64,000 nucleotides of DNA. It comes from Exiguobacterium sibiricum 7-3 (GTDB lineage Bacteria > Bacillota > Bacilli > Exiguobacteriales > Exiguobacteriaceae). Numbering within the stretch: the first letter of the stretch is position 1; each line of letters opens with the position of its first letter. Below the pieces are notes generated by a model, which worked only from the letters and a program-made list of their open reading frames with translations, did no database searches and was not told the DNA's origin. This document shows, in pieces, positions 7,171 through 13,358 of the stretch. The translations under genes and the position numbers were made by a program. The stretch covers positions 1,749,971-1,813,970 of the forward strand of contig NZ_KK211190.1 in assembly GCF_000620865.1 (NCBI RefSeq). Direction: 5' to 3'.

Positions 7171-7899
7171 TTAGCGACCGATATGAACAGACGTAAATAC
7201 AAATTTATCATATCGATGCCGCGAAAATGAATATTCGAACGGTTTTCCGTTTCCGAGAAAGACGACTTGTTCGACTTCAATCACGGGATCGGTTTCTTCG
7301 TTCCCTAGATATTCACGATCCCACTGGTTCGGTTTGTCTGCGCGAATCATCTTGTGTGAACTGGTGATCGTATAGCCGAGTTCTTCTTGAATGTACCGGT
7401 AAATCGAACTGTCCAGAATTTCTTTCGTCAATCCGGTGATCAGTGATGAAGGCATAAACGTATGTTCAATGACATATGGTTCCTCTTCCACATACCGGAC
7501 ACGTCGTATCTCGTAGACCGGATCGGTTTTCTCAATCATCAAGTGCCGGGCGACTTCCGCTTCCGGGAAGCGGACCTCGAACTGCAAGACTTCACTTTTC
7601 ACTGCCCGCTCCCCGAGCAGTTTCGTCAACCCCTGCGATTCTTTATTCAATACATTGATTCTTCCCTGCGAAAAATTCGATGGCAGGATGAACGTGCCTT
7701 GCCCTCGTTGCCGGTAGATGATGCCTTCCAGTACTAAAATTTCCAGTGCGCGTTTCATCGTCATTCGACTGACTTCGAATTCCTGTCCCAACTGAATCTC
7801 ATCCGGCATGGCTTCCTCGACATCATATCCGCCGTTGAGGATTCGTTCGCGTAACTCATCCGCGATTTTTTCATACTTTGGTTTCTTTTTTGTAGACAT
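7171..7899 (-). CDS. gmuR: GntR/HutC-family repressor of the gmu-like locus
   Basis: Residues ~8-72 form the GntR winged helix (KYEKIADELRERIL, FEVSRMTMKRALEILVLEGII, RQRGQGTFI). Residues ~90-235 form the UTRA effector domain (YEIRRVRYVEEEPYVIEHTF). It is the last gene after IIB-IIA-IIC-GH1 on the minus strand, the same order as gmuB-A-C-D-R of Bacillus subtilis, where GmuR represses glucomannan-use genes. A TGT-N4-ACA operator candidate lies 13 bases upstream (7912-7921) and recurs at the promoter of the operon. The effector is likely a phosphorylated sugar; this is inference from family. Confidence 0.88.
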   Translation of the reverse strand: MSTKKKPKYEKIADELRERILNGGYDVEEAMPDEIQLGQEFEVSRMTMKRALEILVLEGIIYRQRGQGTFILPSNFSQGRINVLNKESQGLTKLLGERAVKSEVLQFEVRFPEAEVARHLMIEKTDPVYEIRRVRYVEEEPYVIEHTFMPSSLITGLTKEILDSSIYRYIQEELGYTITSSHKMIRADKPNQWDREYLGNEETDPVIEVEQVVFLGNGKPFEYSFSRHRYDKFVFTSVHIGR

Positions 7900-7911
7900 G
7901 ATTCCACCCCA

Positions 7912-7921
7912 TGTATAGACA
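7912..7921 (-). promoter_or_regulatory. Candidate GntR operator upstream of gmuR
   Basis: TGTATAGACA (TGTCTATACA on the minus strand) fits the TGT-N4-ACA form typical of HutC-type GntR sites and is nearly the same as the site at 11478-11487. It suggests autoregulation. Confidence 0.45.
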
Positions 7922-7981
7922 TATAAGAATAATATAACAAAAAAAGATAATCAGGGCTAGATATCCCCTGATTATCTTCCT

Positions 7982-9403
7982 TCATTTTATGAAACCATCC
8001 TCTTCTATCAATTGCTTGAACCAATGTCCACTCTTTTTGACCGTTCTGGTCTGACTGGCCAAGTCCACCCCGACGAAGCCATATCGGTTTTTATACGCAT
8101 TGCTCCATGACCAGTTATCCATGAACGTCCAAAGATGATACCCTTTGACGTTCGCACCTTCTTGTAAGGCAAGATGGACCCACTTGAGATGCTCCGCGAT
8201 GAAATCAATCCGGTAATCATCCTGAATGCTTCCGTCCGCATCACGATACCGTTCTTCTCCCTCGACGCCCATGCCGTTCTCCGAAATGAAGCACTCGATG
8301 TTTCCATAGTTCTCACGCAAGTTCGTCAAGATGTCATAGACACCCTTCTCGTAAATTTCCCATCCCCTGTGACGGTTCATTTTACGTCCCGGCATCTCGT
8401 AATAATCGAACAGATGCTCCGGCATGAACGGTGCTGCGGGGTTCGGCAGATGCTCCTTCACCTTGATCCGTCTCGGCTGGTAATAGTTAATACCGAGCAG
8501 GTCGACCGTATAGGTCGCAATCATCTGCCGGTCCGTTTCTTCCATGTCCGGTAGAGCGTTTTGTTCCTCTAACAGATTGATCAGTTCTTGCGGGAAGGTC
8601 CCGAGCACGGATGGATCCAGGAAGGAACGGTTGAACAGGATGTCCGCCAAGTGAGCAGCTTGGACGTCCGCCTCATTCTGGCTTCTCGGATAAGAAGGGG
8701 TCAGGTTCAGAATGATACCGATCTTGCCCGCCTGGTCTGATTCCTTATATGCTTTGATTGCCAGTGCACTGGATAAGATCGAATGATAAGCGACCTGGAC
8801 GGCTCTTTTGAAGTCCACTACATTCGGATAATGGAAATCATACAGATAGCCACCTTCGACCGGGACGATCGGTTCGTTATGCGTGAACCATTTCGATACG
8901 CGGTCACCGAACAACTCGAAGCAAGTCTTGGCATAGTCGACGAAATGCAGGACGACGTCCCGGCTCTCCCATCCACCTTTTTGTTGCAGCGCAAGCGGCA
9001 TATCGAAATGGTATAGATTGACGAATGGTTCGATATCCGCCTGGATCAGCTCATCGATCACACGATTATAGAAGTCCACGGCCAATGGATTGATTTTCCC
9101 TTCACCTGTCGGGAACAGCCGTGACCAGGAAATCGACAGTCGGAAAGAGTTGTGTCCCAGTTCCTTCATCAAAGCGATATCCTCTTCGTACCGGTGATAA
9201 AAATTAGACGCTACGTTCGCACTGACCCCGTCAAAGAATCGGTTGGGCTCTTGCTCGTACCAGTAGTCCCAAATGTTCGGACCCTTTCCCGCTTCATCTG
9301 CCGCCCCTTCCATTTGCGTGGCGGAGGCAGCCGTTCCCCACCAAAAGTCAGTCGGAAAGGTATACTTTTTTGTTTGTCCGGTCATGTTTTCAATCTGATT
9401 CAT
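7982..9403 (-). CDS. gmuD: GH1 6-phospho-beta-glycosidase
   Basis: This is a complete GH1 (beta/alpha)8 enzyme of ~473 residues. The N-terminal signature is FWWGTAASATQMEG, the acid/base motif is THNEP (Glu177) and the nucleophile motif is SENGMG (Glu375). The family cleaves 6-phospho-beta-glucosides or -mannosides made by PTS uptake; position in a gmu-like operon favours mannose- or glucose-containing disaccharide phosphates. The start at 9403 is chosen because AGGA lies 10 bases upstream; a GTG at 9412 has no proper spacing. It follows the IIC gene by 29 bases. Confidence 0.92.
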   Translation of the reverse strand: MNQIENMTGQTKKYTFPTDFWWGTAASATQMEGAADEAGKGPNIWDYWYEQEPNRFFDGVSANVASNFYHRYEEDIALMKELGHNSFRLSISWSRLFPTGEGKINPLAVDFYNRVIDELIQADIEPFVNLYHFDMPLALQQKGGWESRDVVLHFVDYAKTCFELFGDRVSKWFTHNEPIVPVEGGYLYDFHYPNVVDFKRAVQVAYHSILSSALAIKAYKESDQAGKIGIILNLTPSYPRSQNEADVQAAHLADILFNRSFLDPSVLGTFPQELINLLEEQNALPDMEETDRQMIATYTVDLLGINYYQPRRIKVKEHLPNPAAPFMPEHLFDYYEMPGRKMNRHRGWEIYEKGVYDILTNLRENYGNIECFISENGMGVEGEERYRDADGSIQDDYRIDFIAEHLKWVHLALQEGANVKGYHLWTFMDNWSWSNAYKNRYGFVGVDLASQTRTVKKSGHWFKQLIEEDGFIK

Positions 9404-9432
9404 CGTATGCACATCCTATCTGTAGTTTTCAC

Positions 9433-10770
9433 TCAACCGATTTGTTGATCTTTTTCCTGTATGGTCTTCGCCTCTGCTCTCTCCTTTTTCAGGTTCAGAC
9501 GATCGATGAAGACAAGGAATGGGAACCACACGGCCATGATGATCGCGAAGTTGACGAGTTGTAATAATCCGCCGGCCAGGGAATTCGTCGCCATCATCCC
9601 GCTGATGAACATCGGAACGGTCCACGGGACGGCGACACCGGTCGGAGGCGGAACGAGACCTGTTGACATGGCGAAGTACGTCACGGTGACGGTAATCATC
9701 GGAGCGAAAATCCAAGGGATCATGATCAGTGGGTTCATGACAATCGGTAGTCCGAAAATCATTGGTTCATTAACGTTAAAGATACCCGGTCCGATTGACA
9801 ACTTCCCGATTTGTTTTAATTGTTTGGAACGCATGAACAACAGGATGGCGACGACGACAGCCAGGGTCGAACCTGATCCGCCGATCCCGACAGTGTAGAT
9901 TTCGATGAACTGTTTGCTGATGATGTTCGGGATTTCTCCATTTGACGTGTAGGCGTTCAGATTTTCGAGTGACAGCGTATTCCAGATCGGATCCATCACC
10001 GAGTTGACGATGACCTGACCGTGGAGACCGAAGAACCAGAAGAGCTGGACAAAGAAGATGGCAATCAAGGTCGGGACGAGTCCGTTTCCTAGATTGACGA
10101 GCGGCTTTTGGACAAGGTCAAAAATGAGATCGTGTAAGTTCGTGTTCAAAAGAGAAGTGACCGCAATGTTGATCATGAGGAAGGTAGTGAGGGTCAACAA
10201 GGCCGGGATGAGAGCTGAAAAAGATTTGGCGACCGCAGTCGGCACGCCGGCCGGCATTTTGATCGTCCAGTTCTTCTGGACGACGAAGCGGTAGATTTCT
10301 CCTGCCAAGAATCCGGTGATCATGGCAAGGAACATGCCTTTCGCACCTAAGCGGTCGAGCGGGATGACGTTTCCGACCGGACCTGTGACATTTTCAACTG
10401 AAACAAAAAATGGAGTAAGTAATAAGAACGAGACTAAAGCAATGACACCACCGAATACGGCTTCGACTTCGTAACTTTTAGAAAGATAATAGCCAATTCC
10501 AAATACCACAAACAATGACATGATTCCCATCGTCGCGGACGGTGCATTCCCGAGTGACGTCTTGAAGGCATCGAGTACGCCAGGAGACATGAACTTATCA
10601 AGAAACGGTAGATTCGCGACGACGACGATCAACGAACCGAACATCGTAATCGGAAAAGCAAGCATGAACGCATCACGTAACGTTTGCAGGTAACGACTGT
10701 TATTCAAAAATGCCGCCATCGGCATCAGGAAACGACTCAACAGGTCGAACCACTTACTATTCTCAGTCAT
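9433..10770 (-). CDS. gmuC: PTS lactose/cellobiose-family transporter subunit IIC
   Basis: The protein of ~445 residues has about ten membrane helices and the hallmarks of the Lac-family EIIC: LRDAFMLAFPITMFGSLIVV near the N-terminus, NEPMIFGLPIVMNP in the substrate loop and PWTVPMFISG late. It forms the membrane channel that imports a beta-disaccharide while the cytosolic IIA and IIB phosphorylate it. The start at 10770 has AAGGAG 8 bases upstream; a GTG at 10779 overlaps that ribosome site. It lies between IIA and the GH1 gene in one minus-strand operon. Confidence 0.93.
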   Translation of the reverse strand: MTENSKWFDLLSRFLMPMAAFLNNSRYLQTLRDAFMLAFPITMFGSLIVVVANLPFLDKFMSPGVLDAFKTSLGNAPSATMGIMSLFVVFGIGYYLSKSYEVEAVFGGVIALVSFLLLTPFFVSVENVTGPVGNVIPLDRLGAKGMFLAMITGFLAGEIYRFVVQKNWTIKMPAGVPTAVAKSFSALIPALLTLTTFLMINIAVTSLLNTNLHDLIFDLVQKPLVNLGNGLVPTLIAIFFVQLFWFFGLHGQVIVNSVMDPIWNTLSLENLNAYTSNGEIPNIISKQFIEIYTVGIGGSGSTLAVVVAILLFMRSKQLKQIGKLSIGPGIFNVNEPMIFGLPIVMNPLIMIPWIFAPMITVTVTYFAMSTGLVPPPTGVAVPWTVPMFISGMMATNSLAGGLLQLVNFAIIMAVWFPFLVFIDRLNLKKERAEAKTIQEKDQQIG

Positions 10771-10785
10771 CTCAAACACTCCTTC

Positions 10786-11115
10786 TTATTTTTTAGAAAA
10801 CTTATGTTCCATGAGCTCGATGAGCCCCGAGGTTAAATCAAGCATCGTCTGAGTCGACATCAAGTGGTCCTCTGCATGCAGCAGTAATAGGGACAACGTT
10901 GCCGGTTCACCGTTCGCTTCCTTTTGCACTTGTCCAAAGTGAACCTGGTGCGCTTCCTGCAGTTGCGAACGTGCACTGGACAGCAATTGATCAAACTCTT
11001 CAAAGGTACCGTCTTTATACACTTCGATTGCCTCACGGATCGTACTTCTTGCATTCCCGCTGTGCAAAATCATCATGAACGCTACTTGTTCAATCGTCTG
11101 TTCATTCGTTGGCAT
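10786..11115 (-). CDS. gmuA: PTS lactose/cellobiose-family subunit IIA
   Basis: This is a helical IIA protein of ~110 residues with the phospho-acceptor segment LLLLHAEDHLM (His80), which receives phosphate from HPr and passes it to IIB. The N-terminal FMMILHSGNARSTIREAI is also typical of the family. The GTG at 11124 would overlap the IIB stop; the ATG at 11115 has GGGG 8 bases upstream and lies 5 bases past that stop, so translation is probably coupled to IIB. Confidence 0.92.
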   Translation of the reverse strand: MPTNEQTIEQVAFMMILHSGNARSTIREAIEVYKDGTFEEFDQLLSSARSQLQEAHQVHFGQVQKEANGEPATLSLLLLHAEDHLMSTQTMLDLTSGLIELMEHKFSKK

Positions 11116-11120
11116 ATCAT

Positions 11121-11417
11121 TCACCCCATCAATTTTACGGCTTGTTCGTACGCCGCTTTTCCGTCAGCCATTCCATACGCCATCATATCGATCACTTCGA
11201 CCGGCTTATCTGTCGCCTTTTGAAATTTCGATAATAGAAAACGCATCTGAGGTCCAATCAGGATGACATCGGCACCATCCATCTCTTTCATTGCCTGATC
11301 TTGTCCTACTGCCCAAATCTTGGCTTCTTCTCCGATTCCCTTCGCATGTTCCTGCATTTTCGATACGAGGATACTCGTCGACATTCCCGAGCTGCACGCC
11401 AACATAATTTTTTTCAT
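11121..11417 (-). CDS. gmuB: PTS lactose/cellobiose-family subunit IIB
   Basis: A 98-residue IIB domain with phospho-Cys8 in the loop ACSSGMSTS, followed by KMQEHA and a GPQMRFLL segment, all typical of the cellobiose/chitobiose IIB family. It passes phosphate from IIA to the incoming sugar. AAGGAGG lies 8 bases before the ATG. It is the first gene of the operon, just downstream of a promoter with a cre site. Confidence 0.92.
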   Translation of the reverse strand: MKKIMLACSSGMSTSILVSKMQEHAKGIGEEAKIWAVGQDQAMKEMDGADVILIGPQMRFLLSKFQKATDKPVEVIDMMAYGMADGKAAYEQAVKLMG

Positions 11418-11455: not shown

Positions 11456-11483
11456 ATTATACGGATTTATTCTTTCATGTCTA
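11456..11483 (-). promoter_or_regulatory. Promoter of the gmu-like operon
   Basis: On the minus strand TAGACA (11483-11478) and TATAAT (11461-11456) are separated by 16 bases. The -35 box lies inside the GntR operator candidate, so repressor binding would block RNA polymerase. Confidence 0.6.
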
Positions 11484-11487
11484 TACT
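11478..11487 (-). promoter_or_regulatory. Candidate GntR operator overlapping the -35 box
   Basis: TGTCTATACT on the plus strand (AGTATAGACA on the minus) matches the site upstream of the regulator gene at 9 of 10 positions. It lies between the divergent operon and the isomerase-kinase gene, so it could control both. Confidence 0.45.
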
Positions 11488-11564
11488 TGATAATTATTTT
11501 GTTTATTTTTATTTTTTAAAAGTGTAGAGTTGTTATTGAAAATAGATTGAAGGAGGAATAAGAC

Positions 11565-13358
11565 ATGCAGGAACCGATTTTTTTCGAACCCGTCGCAAAA
11601 GAGCGAATTTGGGGTGGTCAGAAGCTTCGACAGTATGGTTTCCCCGTTTCAGACGAACGACGTATAGGTGAAGTCTGGACGATTGCCAGTCATCCGAACG
11701 GCATGACGACCGTTCAATCCAGAACACTGACAGGTCTTACGCTGGAAGAATTATGGTCAAATCACCCTGAAATTTTTGGAATGGAGACGCACTCCGACTT
11801 CCCGCTTTTACTGAAGTGGATCGATGCCTCGACGGATTTATCGGTCCAAGTCCACCCGACCGACGCGGATGCGAGACGCTATGAAGACCAGCCGTTCGGT
11901 AAGAATGAATGTTGGTACATCATCGATTGTCCTGAGAACGCTACTCTCATCTACGGTCATTCCCTGTCTTCGCCATCCGAACTTGATACGGCAGTCGACC
12001 AGGGAACCTTAGTCCAATCGCTGAAGCACATCCCAGTCTCAAAAGGTGATTTCTTCTATGTACCGGCCGGAACGGTCCATGCTTTGACGAAAGGCTGTGT
12101 CGTCCTCGAAATCCAACAAAGTTCAGATACGACTTACCGGCTATATGATTATGATCGTCTCGATCCTGTGACAGGAATGAAACGTCCGCTTCATCTCGAT
12201 CAAGCCCGACGCGTCATCCGTTTCCCGCATTTTCACTACGCGGAACCTCCTGTTTTCTTGTCTTCCTTCCGCAAAAGATTGACGCAGACACCTGATTTCT
12301 TCGTCGAAGAATGGGCCATCCGCCAGACACATACCTTGGAGTCATCCCCTTTGTTCCAAATCATTACGGTCATCGAAGGAACGATTGAATTGAATGGTGT
12401 TAAATTATCAGTTGGCACAACGGTCCTCTTACCTGCTAATAGCGAGCATACTGTCTCCGGAACAGGACTTCTGATCGTCACCGGTCCCTCACTAAAAATA
12501 ACGCGTCCGCTCCGGATCGGGATCGATTTAGGTGGCACCCAGACACGCGTCGCCGTCGTCAATCAGGATACTATCATTAAACAGCTATCGTTTCCGACAC
12601 GTCCGGCAGCTGGTCCGGAACAAACTATCTCTCACATCAAACAAGCCATTCAACTGTTCTCGGACGAATTCCAGCTGACGACAATCGGTATCGCAGCCCC
12701 CGGGCCGCTCGATACCAAGACGGGACATCTCCTGTCTCCTCCGAACTTGCCGGGTTGGGATGACGTCGATCTCGTCACCCCTCTATCCTCGACGTTCGAC
12801 ATCCCGGTGTCGCTTGAGAATGATGCGAATGCCGCAGCCCTCGGCGAAGCTCTATTCGGAGCGGGTCAATCGTACTCTTCCGTCTATTACGTGACCGTCA
12901 GTACGGGTATAGGCGGCGGATATGTGTATGAGAAAAAACTCATTCGTGGGGCGCACGGGTACGCAGGAGAAATCGGCAATACGATCATCGATTCATCCGG
13001 TCCGGCACATCCTGTGCTTAATGCCGGTTCGCTTGAAGGACTGGCCAGCGGCACGGCTCTTCAATCACGCGCTTTAGAAAAGCGGGCGTCGTCCATCGAA
13101 CGGTTACTCGAGGACCCGCAGGAACGGACCCGTTTCATCAACCACCTGGCGACAGGACTCGCCAATATCATTCATACGATTGATCCAGATGTCATCGTCA
13201 TCGGCGGTGGGGTTACCGGATCAGCCGATTTGTATTGGGAAGAGTTGCTTGAAGCTGTCAGCGGATTAGTCTATCCGTCGCTCCGATCTAGTATCGATAT
13301 CCGTCTCGCGACACTGGAGGGTCATGCCGGAGTCATCGGAGCGGCATATCTAGAGTGA
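11565..13358 (+). CDS. Natural fusion: mannose-6-phosphate isomerase + ROK sugar kinase
   Basis: One unbroken 597-residue frame with GGAGG before the ATG. Residues 1-~309 are a full type I phosphomannose isomerase (cupin): zinc ligands His97 (QVHPTD), Glu115 (NECWY), His172 (VPAGTVHAL) and active-site Arg192. After a short linker, residues ~316-597 are a full ROK kinase: DLGGTQTR (321-328), AAPGPLD, catalytic Asp420 in ENDANAA, STGIGGG and His464 in AHGYAGEIGN. The usual ROK zinc motif CxCGxxGC is absent; the aligned segment is LNAGSLEGLASG. In B. subtilis separate gmuE (ROK fructokinase) and gmuF (isomerase) sit in the gmu operon; here they are joined in the order isomerase-kinase and diverge from gmuB. 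Together they would link mannose-6-P, fructose-6-P and free sugar phosphorylation. Confidence 0.9.
   Translation: MQEPIFFEPVAKERIWGGQKLRQYGFPVSDERRIGEVWTIASHPNGMTTVQSRTLTGLTLEELWSNHPEIFGMETHSDFPLLLKWIDASTDLSVQVHPTDADARRYEDQPFGKNECWYIIDCPENATLIYGHSLSSPSELDTAVDQGTLVQSLKHIPVSKGDFFYVPAGTVHALTKGCVVLEIQQSSDTTYRLYDYDRLDPVTGMKRPLHLDQARRVIRFPHFHYAEPPVFLSSFRKRLTQTPDFFVEEWAIRQTHTLESSPLFQIITVIEGTIELNGVKLSVGTTVLLPANSEHTVSGTGLLIVTGPSLKITRPLRIGIDLGGTQTRVAVVNQDTIIKQLSFPTRPAAGPEQTISHIKQAIQLFSDEFQLTTIGIAAPGPLDTKTGHLLSPPNLPGWDDVDLVTPLSSTFDIPVSLENDANAAALGEALFGAGQSYSSVYYVTVSTGIGGGYVYEKKLIRGAHGYAGEIGNTIIDSSGPAHPVLNAGSLEGLASGTALQSRALEKRASSIERLLEDPQERTRFINHLATGLANIIHTIDPDVIVIGGGVTGSADLYWEELLEAVSGLVYPSLRSSIDIRLATLEGHAGVIGAAYLE

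Follow-up and report, generated by a model that had tools for sequence, protein, structure and literature searches.

The gene at positions 11565 to 13358 (+) of the window, the whole 64,000-nucleotide stretch of Exiguobacterium sibiricum 7-3 DNA analysed here, encodes a class I mannose-6-phosphate isomerase (PMI) and a ROK sugar kinase in one 597-residue polypeptide, and this fused protein is real and conserved rather than an artefact. Judged by its neighbours and relatives, we favour with moderate confidence the reading that it acts as a bifunctional mannokinase-PMI for beta-mannosides imported by a phosphotransferase system (PTS), under GntR/HutC control and descended from a single fusion in Bacilli. 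The PMI-ROK arrangement is apparently a new domain architecture of known enzymes, as we found no description of a PMI-kinase fusion in the open-access literature searched.

One open frame with two complete domains

The frame runs for 597 codons from its ATG start to its TGA end without interruption and is preceded by a strong Shine-Dalgarno sequence, AAGGAGG (11550 to 11556, +). Residues 1-306 (11565 to 12482, +) make up the class I PMI domain and residues 318-597 (12516 to 13355, +) the ROK kinase domain, joined by an interdomain linker of about 10 residues (307-317; 12483 to 12515, +) that is variable in sequence and contains no in-frame canonical start. Pfam (PF20511 and PF21621 for the first half, PF00480 at E 2e-59 for the second) places PMI_typeI_cat at residues 8-105, MPI_cupin_dom at 240-306 and ROK at 318-596, each above its curated cut-off, and the NCBIfam manA model (TIGR00218) scores 168 bits against a cut-off of 116. 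The PMI half aligned end to end with the B. subtilis PMI (1qwr, E 5e-70), and the ROK half aligned over its full length with the ROK hexokinase 3vov (E 2e-41) and was also aligned with 2qm1.

The preliminary description had proposed that one uninterrupted frame fuses two complete domains, with His97, Glu115, His172 and Asp420 as catalytic residues. The open frame and the domain matches bear this out, and in an alignment of 17 fused relatives we observed that Q95, H97, E115, H172, N419, D420, E469 and E491 are all invariant. The PMI half possesses the catalytic cupin and the His/Glu/His metal ligands of a class I enzyme, and the ROK half has the ATP motif DxGGT, as DLGGT at residues 321-325, together with N419-D420 in an END motif, the marks of a ROK kinase; the D-GGT and GTGIGGG-type phosphate motifs are likewise invariant in the fused proteins. 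Measured against the nearest relative, both halves are under purifying selection, with a dN/dS of about 0.13 (0.045/0.349) for the PMI half and about 0.05 (0.015/0.322) for the ROK half, which is the more strongly constrained of the two. An AlphaFold2 model built from 17 fused sequences comprises two well-formed domains (mean pLDDT 85.9, pTM 0.83), with low confidence mainly in residues 463-490, the former zinc-loop region. When this model was searched with Foldseek, the PMI 1qwr (E 3e-35, TM 0.89 by target) and ROK kinases were matched separately, and among the matches listed each covers one half only.

With 18 independent intact frames, neither a concealed stop around codon 310 nor an error in the sequencing can account for the fusion. 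No in-frame ATG, GTG or TTG occurs between about residue 288 and residue 342 of the window gene, so a separate complete kinase could not begin at a canonical codon close to the junction and is not expected as a product of this gene. A few orthologues carry an ATG or TTG near residue 303, where the ribosome site is not convincing. The same fused protein, 78% identical, is already in the database from E. acetylicum (WP_238240380.1) under the NCBI name 'type I phosphomannose isomerase catalytic subunit', which covers the PMI half only and leaves the kinase half unannotated; recognition of the fusion corrects this annotation by revealing a sugar kinase hidden in proteins named only as PMI.

The locus and its operator-like sites

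The fused gene is divergent from an operon that encodes, on the minus strand, a lactose/cellobiose-type PTS EIIB (11124 to 11417; recognised from its translation, with the same annotation in the E. acetylicum orthologue), a lactose/cellobiose-family EIIA (10786 to 11124; PF02255), a cellobiose-family EIIC (9433 to 10779; TIGR00359 at 543 bits, above cut-off) and a GH1 glycosidase, probably a 6-phospho-beta-glycosidase (7982 to 9412; PF00232; best solved relatives 4b3k and 5foo, which include a 6-phospho-beta-glycosidase). A GntR/HutC-type (UTRA) regulator gene lies on the same strand at 7171 to 7899 (PF00392, PF07702). The EIIB-EIIA-EIIC-GH1 set and the GntR gene are kept at all of the roughly 10 fused loci examined, in three families. 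With PTS EIIB/A/C, GH1, GntR, kinase and PMI all present together, the locus is gmu-like, and the likeness to the B. subtilis glucomannan (gmu) operon that had been drawn earlier stands. A search of 38 Exiguobacterium-family genomes for a GH26 mannanase returned none but missed the B. subtilis control too, which makes the negative a weak one, and a GH130 scan of the family gave nothing usable. The window genome also holds a second, standalone PMI and a separate glucokinase-like ROK gene, so the fusion is not the sole source of either activity. At some sister-genus loci (L047:10409-11281, L050:10777-11670) a second, BglK-like ROK kinase follows directly after the fused gene.

Between the divergent promoters lies ATGTCTATACTT (11477 to 11488), a probable GntR/HutC operator that overlaps both -35-like hexamers and is invariant in all 10 divergent promoters checked, across three families. 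Its core, GTCTATAC, matches the HutC-subfamily operator consensus GTMTAKAC (PMC4494728). The exact 12-mer occurs once in the genome; a second copy with one mismatch, ATGTCTATACAT, is found just upstream of the GntR gene (7911 to 7922, -), and a site of this type occupies the same position in all Exiguobacterium-family loci checked, where it probably serves autoregulation. Together the sites at 7911-7922 and 11477-11488 define a candidate GntR regulon.

We propose that the divergent PTS would bring in, in 6-phosphorylated form, a disaccharide that is beta-linked and contains mannose; cleavage by the GH1 enzyme would then yield a free hexose and the 6-phosphate of a sugar. Free mannose would be phosphorylated to mannose 6-phosphate by the ROK half, and the PMI half would turn the mannose 6-phosphate of either source into fructose 6-phosphate, so that the fused enzyme probably lets the cell use mannose from plant sugars. 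On the simplest reading, one GntR/HutC repressor bound at the operator-like motif common to both promoters would jointly govern transport, hydrolysis and the fused enzyme.

Distribution and origin of the fusion

The search covered about 780 Bacillota genomes and found an intact fused frame in 18, which span three families: eight of the 19 genomes included from Exiguobacterium, the window's own genus, seven genomes of its sister genus, and three in two other families (G091 in one genus; G224 and G232, which share a genus, in the third family). The preliminary description had raised the possibility that the fused form is confined to one genus, which this distribution contradicts. In a 398-genome phylum set, no further same-order fusion appeared among the matches listed. 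Some Exiguobacterium copies are plasmid-borne, for example on p1-UTDF19-27C of E. acetylicum. The Exiguobacterium genome G016 has on its chromosome a truncated ROK remnant of the fused gene (L045:8440-9189, -; 249 residues, without the ATP motif) that has no PMI or PTS neighbours, and the intact locus resides on a smaller contig of the same genome.

Maximum-likelihood analysis groups the fused ROK halves in a single clade (support 100/98) nested among standalone ROKs, consistent with one fusion event; the PMI tree does not resolve the fused sequences as a single clade at such depth. The simplest account would be that PMI and ROK genes lying side by side fused a single time and that the whole locus then spread or was lost: a PMI gene would have joined once in Bacilli to a ROK gene of the mannan-utilisation type that lacked the zinc motif, and the fused gene would travel with its locus, at times on plasmids. 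Separate PMI and ROK genes paired with PMI first are common in Bacilli (L016, L017, L039, L042, L043 and L044), and ROK-first unfused pairs occur in Metabacillus and Paenibacillus. The isomerase-first order, singled out in the preliminary description as a reversal of gmuE-gmuF, is therefore not remarkable, since the fused order reverses nothing ancestral.

In Subdoligranulum variabile, a plasmid (OY725846.1; L055:4953-6887, +) carries a fusion of the same two enzyme families in the opposite order to that of Bacilli: one 644-residue frame places ROK first and PMI second. Its ROK half retains the zinc motif and belongs to another ROK branch of the tree, which indicates a fusion independent of the one in Bacilli. 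Related Clostridia have PMI and ROK as separate genes, and among the matches listed in a search with the reverse-order protein the two enzymes were always encoded apart.

Other fusions were also encountered. In G535, a 765-residue protein (L066:2030-4327, -) has a GH1 glycosidase N-terminal to a class I PMI. In G779, a 778-residue protein (L067:2254-4590, -) joins a nucleotidyltransferase and a ManC-type cupin to a complete class I PMI, so that a single chain holds PMIs of two types. Proteins of 555-578 residues in which a ROK domain is fused to an RpiR-type HTH-SIS regulator occur in the sister genus of Exiguobacterium (L068:14924-16660, L069:14849-16516, L070:3713-5380).

Kinase identity and known systems

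The sequence of a ROK protein does not by itself give its sugar specificity. The ROK zinc motif CxCGxxGCxE is missing from the fused kinase, where HPVLNAGSLEGLASG stands in its place and HPVLNAGSLEG occupies the motif position. This motif is present in most, not all, ROK members; the solved relative 4htl, called a beta-glucoside kinase, also lacks it by sequence, and since such kinases exist the missing motif does not exclude membership. The unfused sister ROK at L039 is likewise without the motif, so its loss predates the fusion. The nearest relatives of the fused kinase in the tree are standalone ROKs that lack the motif, two of which lie in GH130 loci: those of L039 (a PMI-ROK pair) and L109 contain ABC transport, a GH130 beta-mannoside phosphorylase and DUF1861. 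The standalone ROK of L107 follows immediately after a PTS EIIC-GH1 pair and has a PMI gene downstream.

From this context we infer that the ROK half is probably a mannokinase. Three considerations favour mannose. The presence of a PMI in the regulon implies mannose 6-phosphate, since such an isomerase has no use unless that intermediate is formed, and this speaks for mannose over plain cellobiose; the two sister ROKs reside in mannoside-phosphorylase loci; and conversion of mannose via mannose 6-phosphate to fructose 6-phosphate would make the two halves consecutive steps. Against a mannokinase-PMI, the GH1 enzyme could be an ordinary 6-phospho-beta-glucosidase, none of the NCBIfam ROK equivalogs reaches its cut-off on the ROK half, and the standalone PMI and glucokinase-like ROK give the genome other sources of both activities. 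The main rival to mannose is glucose, in which case the kinase half, as a glucokinase or broad hexokinase, would remove the glucose that GH1 frees from phosphates of glucomannan or cellobiose, and the fusion would only co-express two non-consecutive enzymes of one regulon. The closest solved relatives (the glucokinases/hexokinases 3vov and 2qm1), the best NCBIfam model for the ROK half (ROK_glcA at 147 bits, against 109-126 for NanK models) and the cellobiose-type PTS with GH1 at the locus all argue for glucose; however, the genome already has its separate glucokinase-like ROK gene, and the mannoside-phosphorylase setting of the two sister ROKs speaks against it, leaving this a possible but rather unlikely alternative. 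A fructokinase like GmuE or ScrK would instead have kinase and isomerase converge on fructose 6-phosphate, as a gmuE-gmuF fusion, which would suit the gmu-like operon context, the unfused PMI-fructokinase pairs in relatives (such as L016, with ScrK at 308 bits) and the naming of GmuE as a fructokinase (PMC11669640). Yet the ROK half scores 95.6 bits against GmuE (1xc3) and 145.5 against 3vov, matching GmuE less well than glucokinase and NanK chains; the ScrK model gives the fused protein only 79.7 bits against an equivalog cut-off of 400, which places it outside the GmuE/ScrK subfamily; and the ScrK-type ROKs of L016, L042 and L054 form a separate branch of the tree. GmuE carries the typical ROK zinc motif that is absent from the fused kinase. 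The earlier equation of the kinase half with GmuE is ruled out by the profile scores and the tree, and we give fructokinase activity only a slim chance.

One half could also be catalytically dead or regulatory, for instance a sugar-sensing ROK domain that tunes the isomerase, given that ROK proteins include regulators, that the zinc motif has been lost and that the loop at 463-490 was predicted with low confidence. Invariance of Asp420, DLGGT, the GTGIGGG-type motifs and Glu469/Glu491, the stronger constraint on the ROK half and the lack of a zinc motif in the kinase 4htl too make this highly improbable. As to how a mannokinase and isomerase might work together, the enzyme could channel, releasing little mannose 6-phosphate, and selection for this could have given rise to the oppositely ordered PMI/ROK fusions of Bacilli and Clostridia on at least two occasions. 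Channelling would be chemically sensible only for a mannokinase, the AlphaFold2 model and Foldseek matches neither favour nor rule it out, and we consider it unlikely. The PMI-ROK fusion offers a test case for channelling versus mere fixed stoichiometry in fused consecutive pathway enzymes, in which unfused relatives that occur in nature can serve as controls and the fusion of opposite order can be compared.

Human GNE (UDP-GlcNAc 2-epimerase/ManNAc kinase; 2yhw, 3eo3) likewise has a ROK kinase behind an isomerase-type enzyme and performs adjoining pathway steps; its isomerase fold, substrates and pathway differ from those of PMI-ROK, and we know of no common origin for the two fusions. Bifunctional PMI-GDP-mannose pyrophosphorylases also join PMI activity to another enzyme of mannose metabolism, although these are type II PMI or GMP enzymes that are biosynthetic and have no kinase. 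B. subtilis gmuBACDREFG, in which GmuE is the kinase and GmuF the PMI, similarly places PTS EIIB/A/C, GH1, GntR, one ROK and one PMI under common control. There, however, kinase and PMI are separate genes, whereas in Exiguobacterium they form one polypeptide, PMI first and divergent from the PTS operon, with a kinase half from another ROK branch than GmuE.
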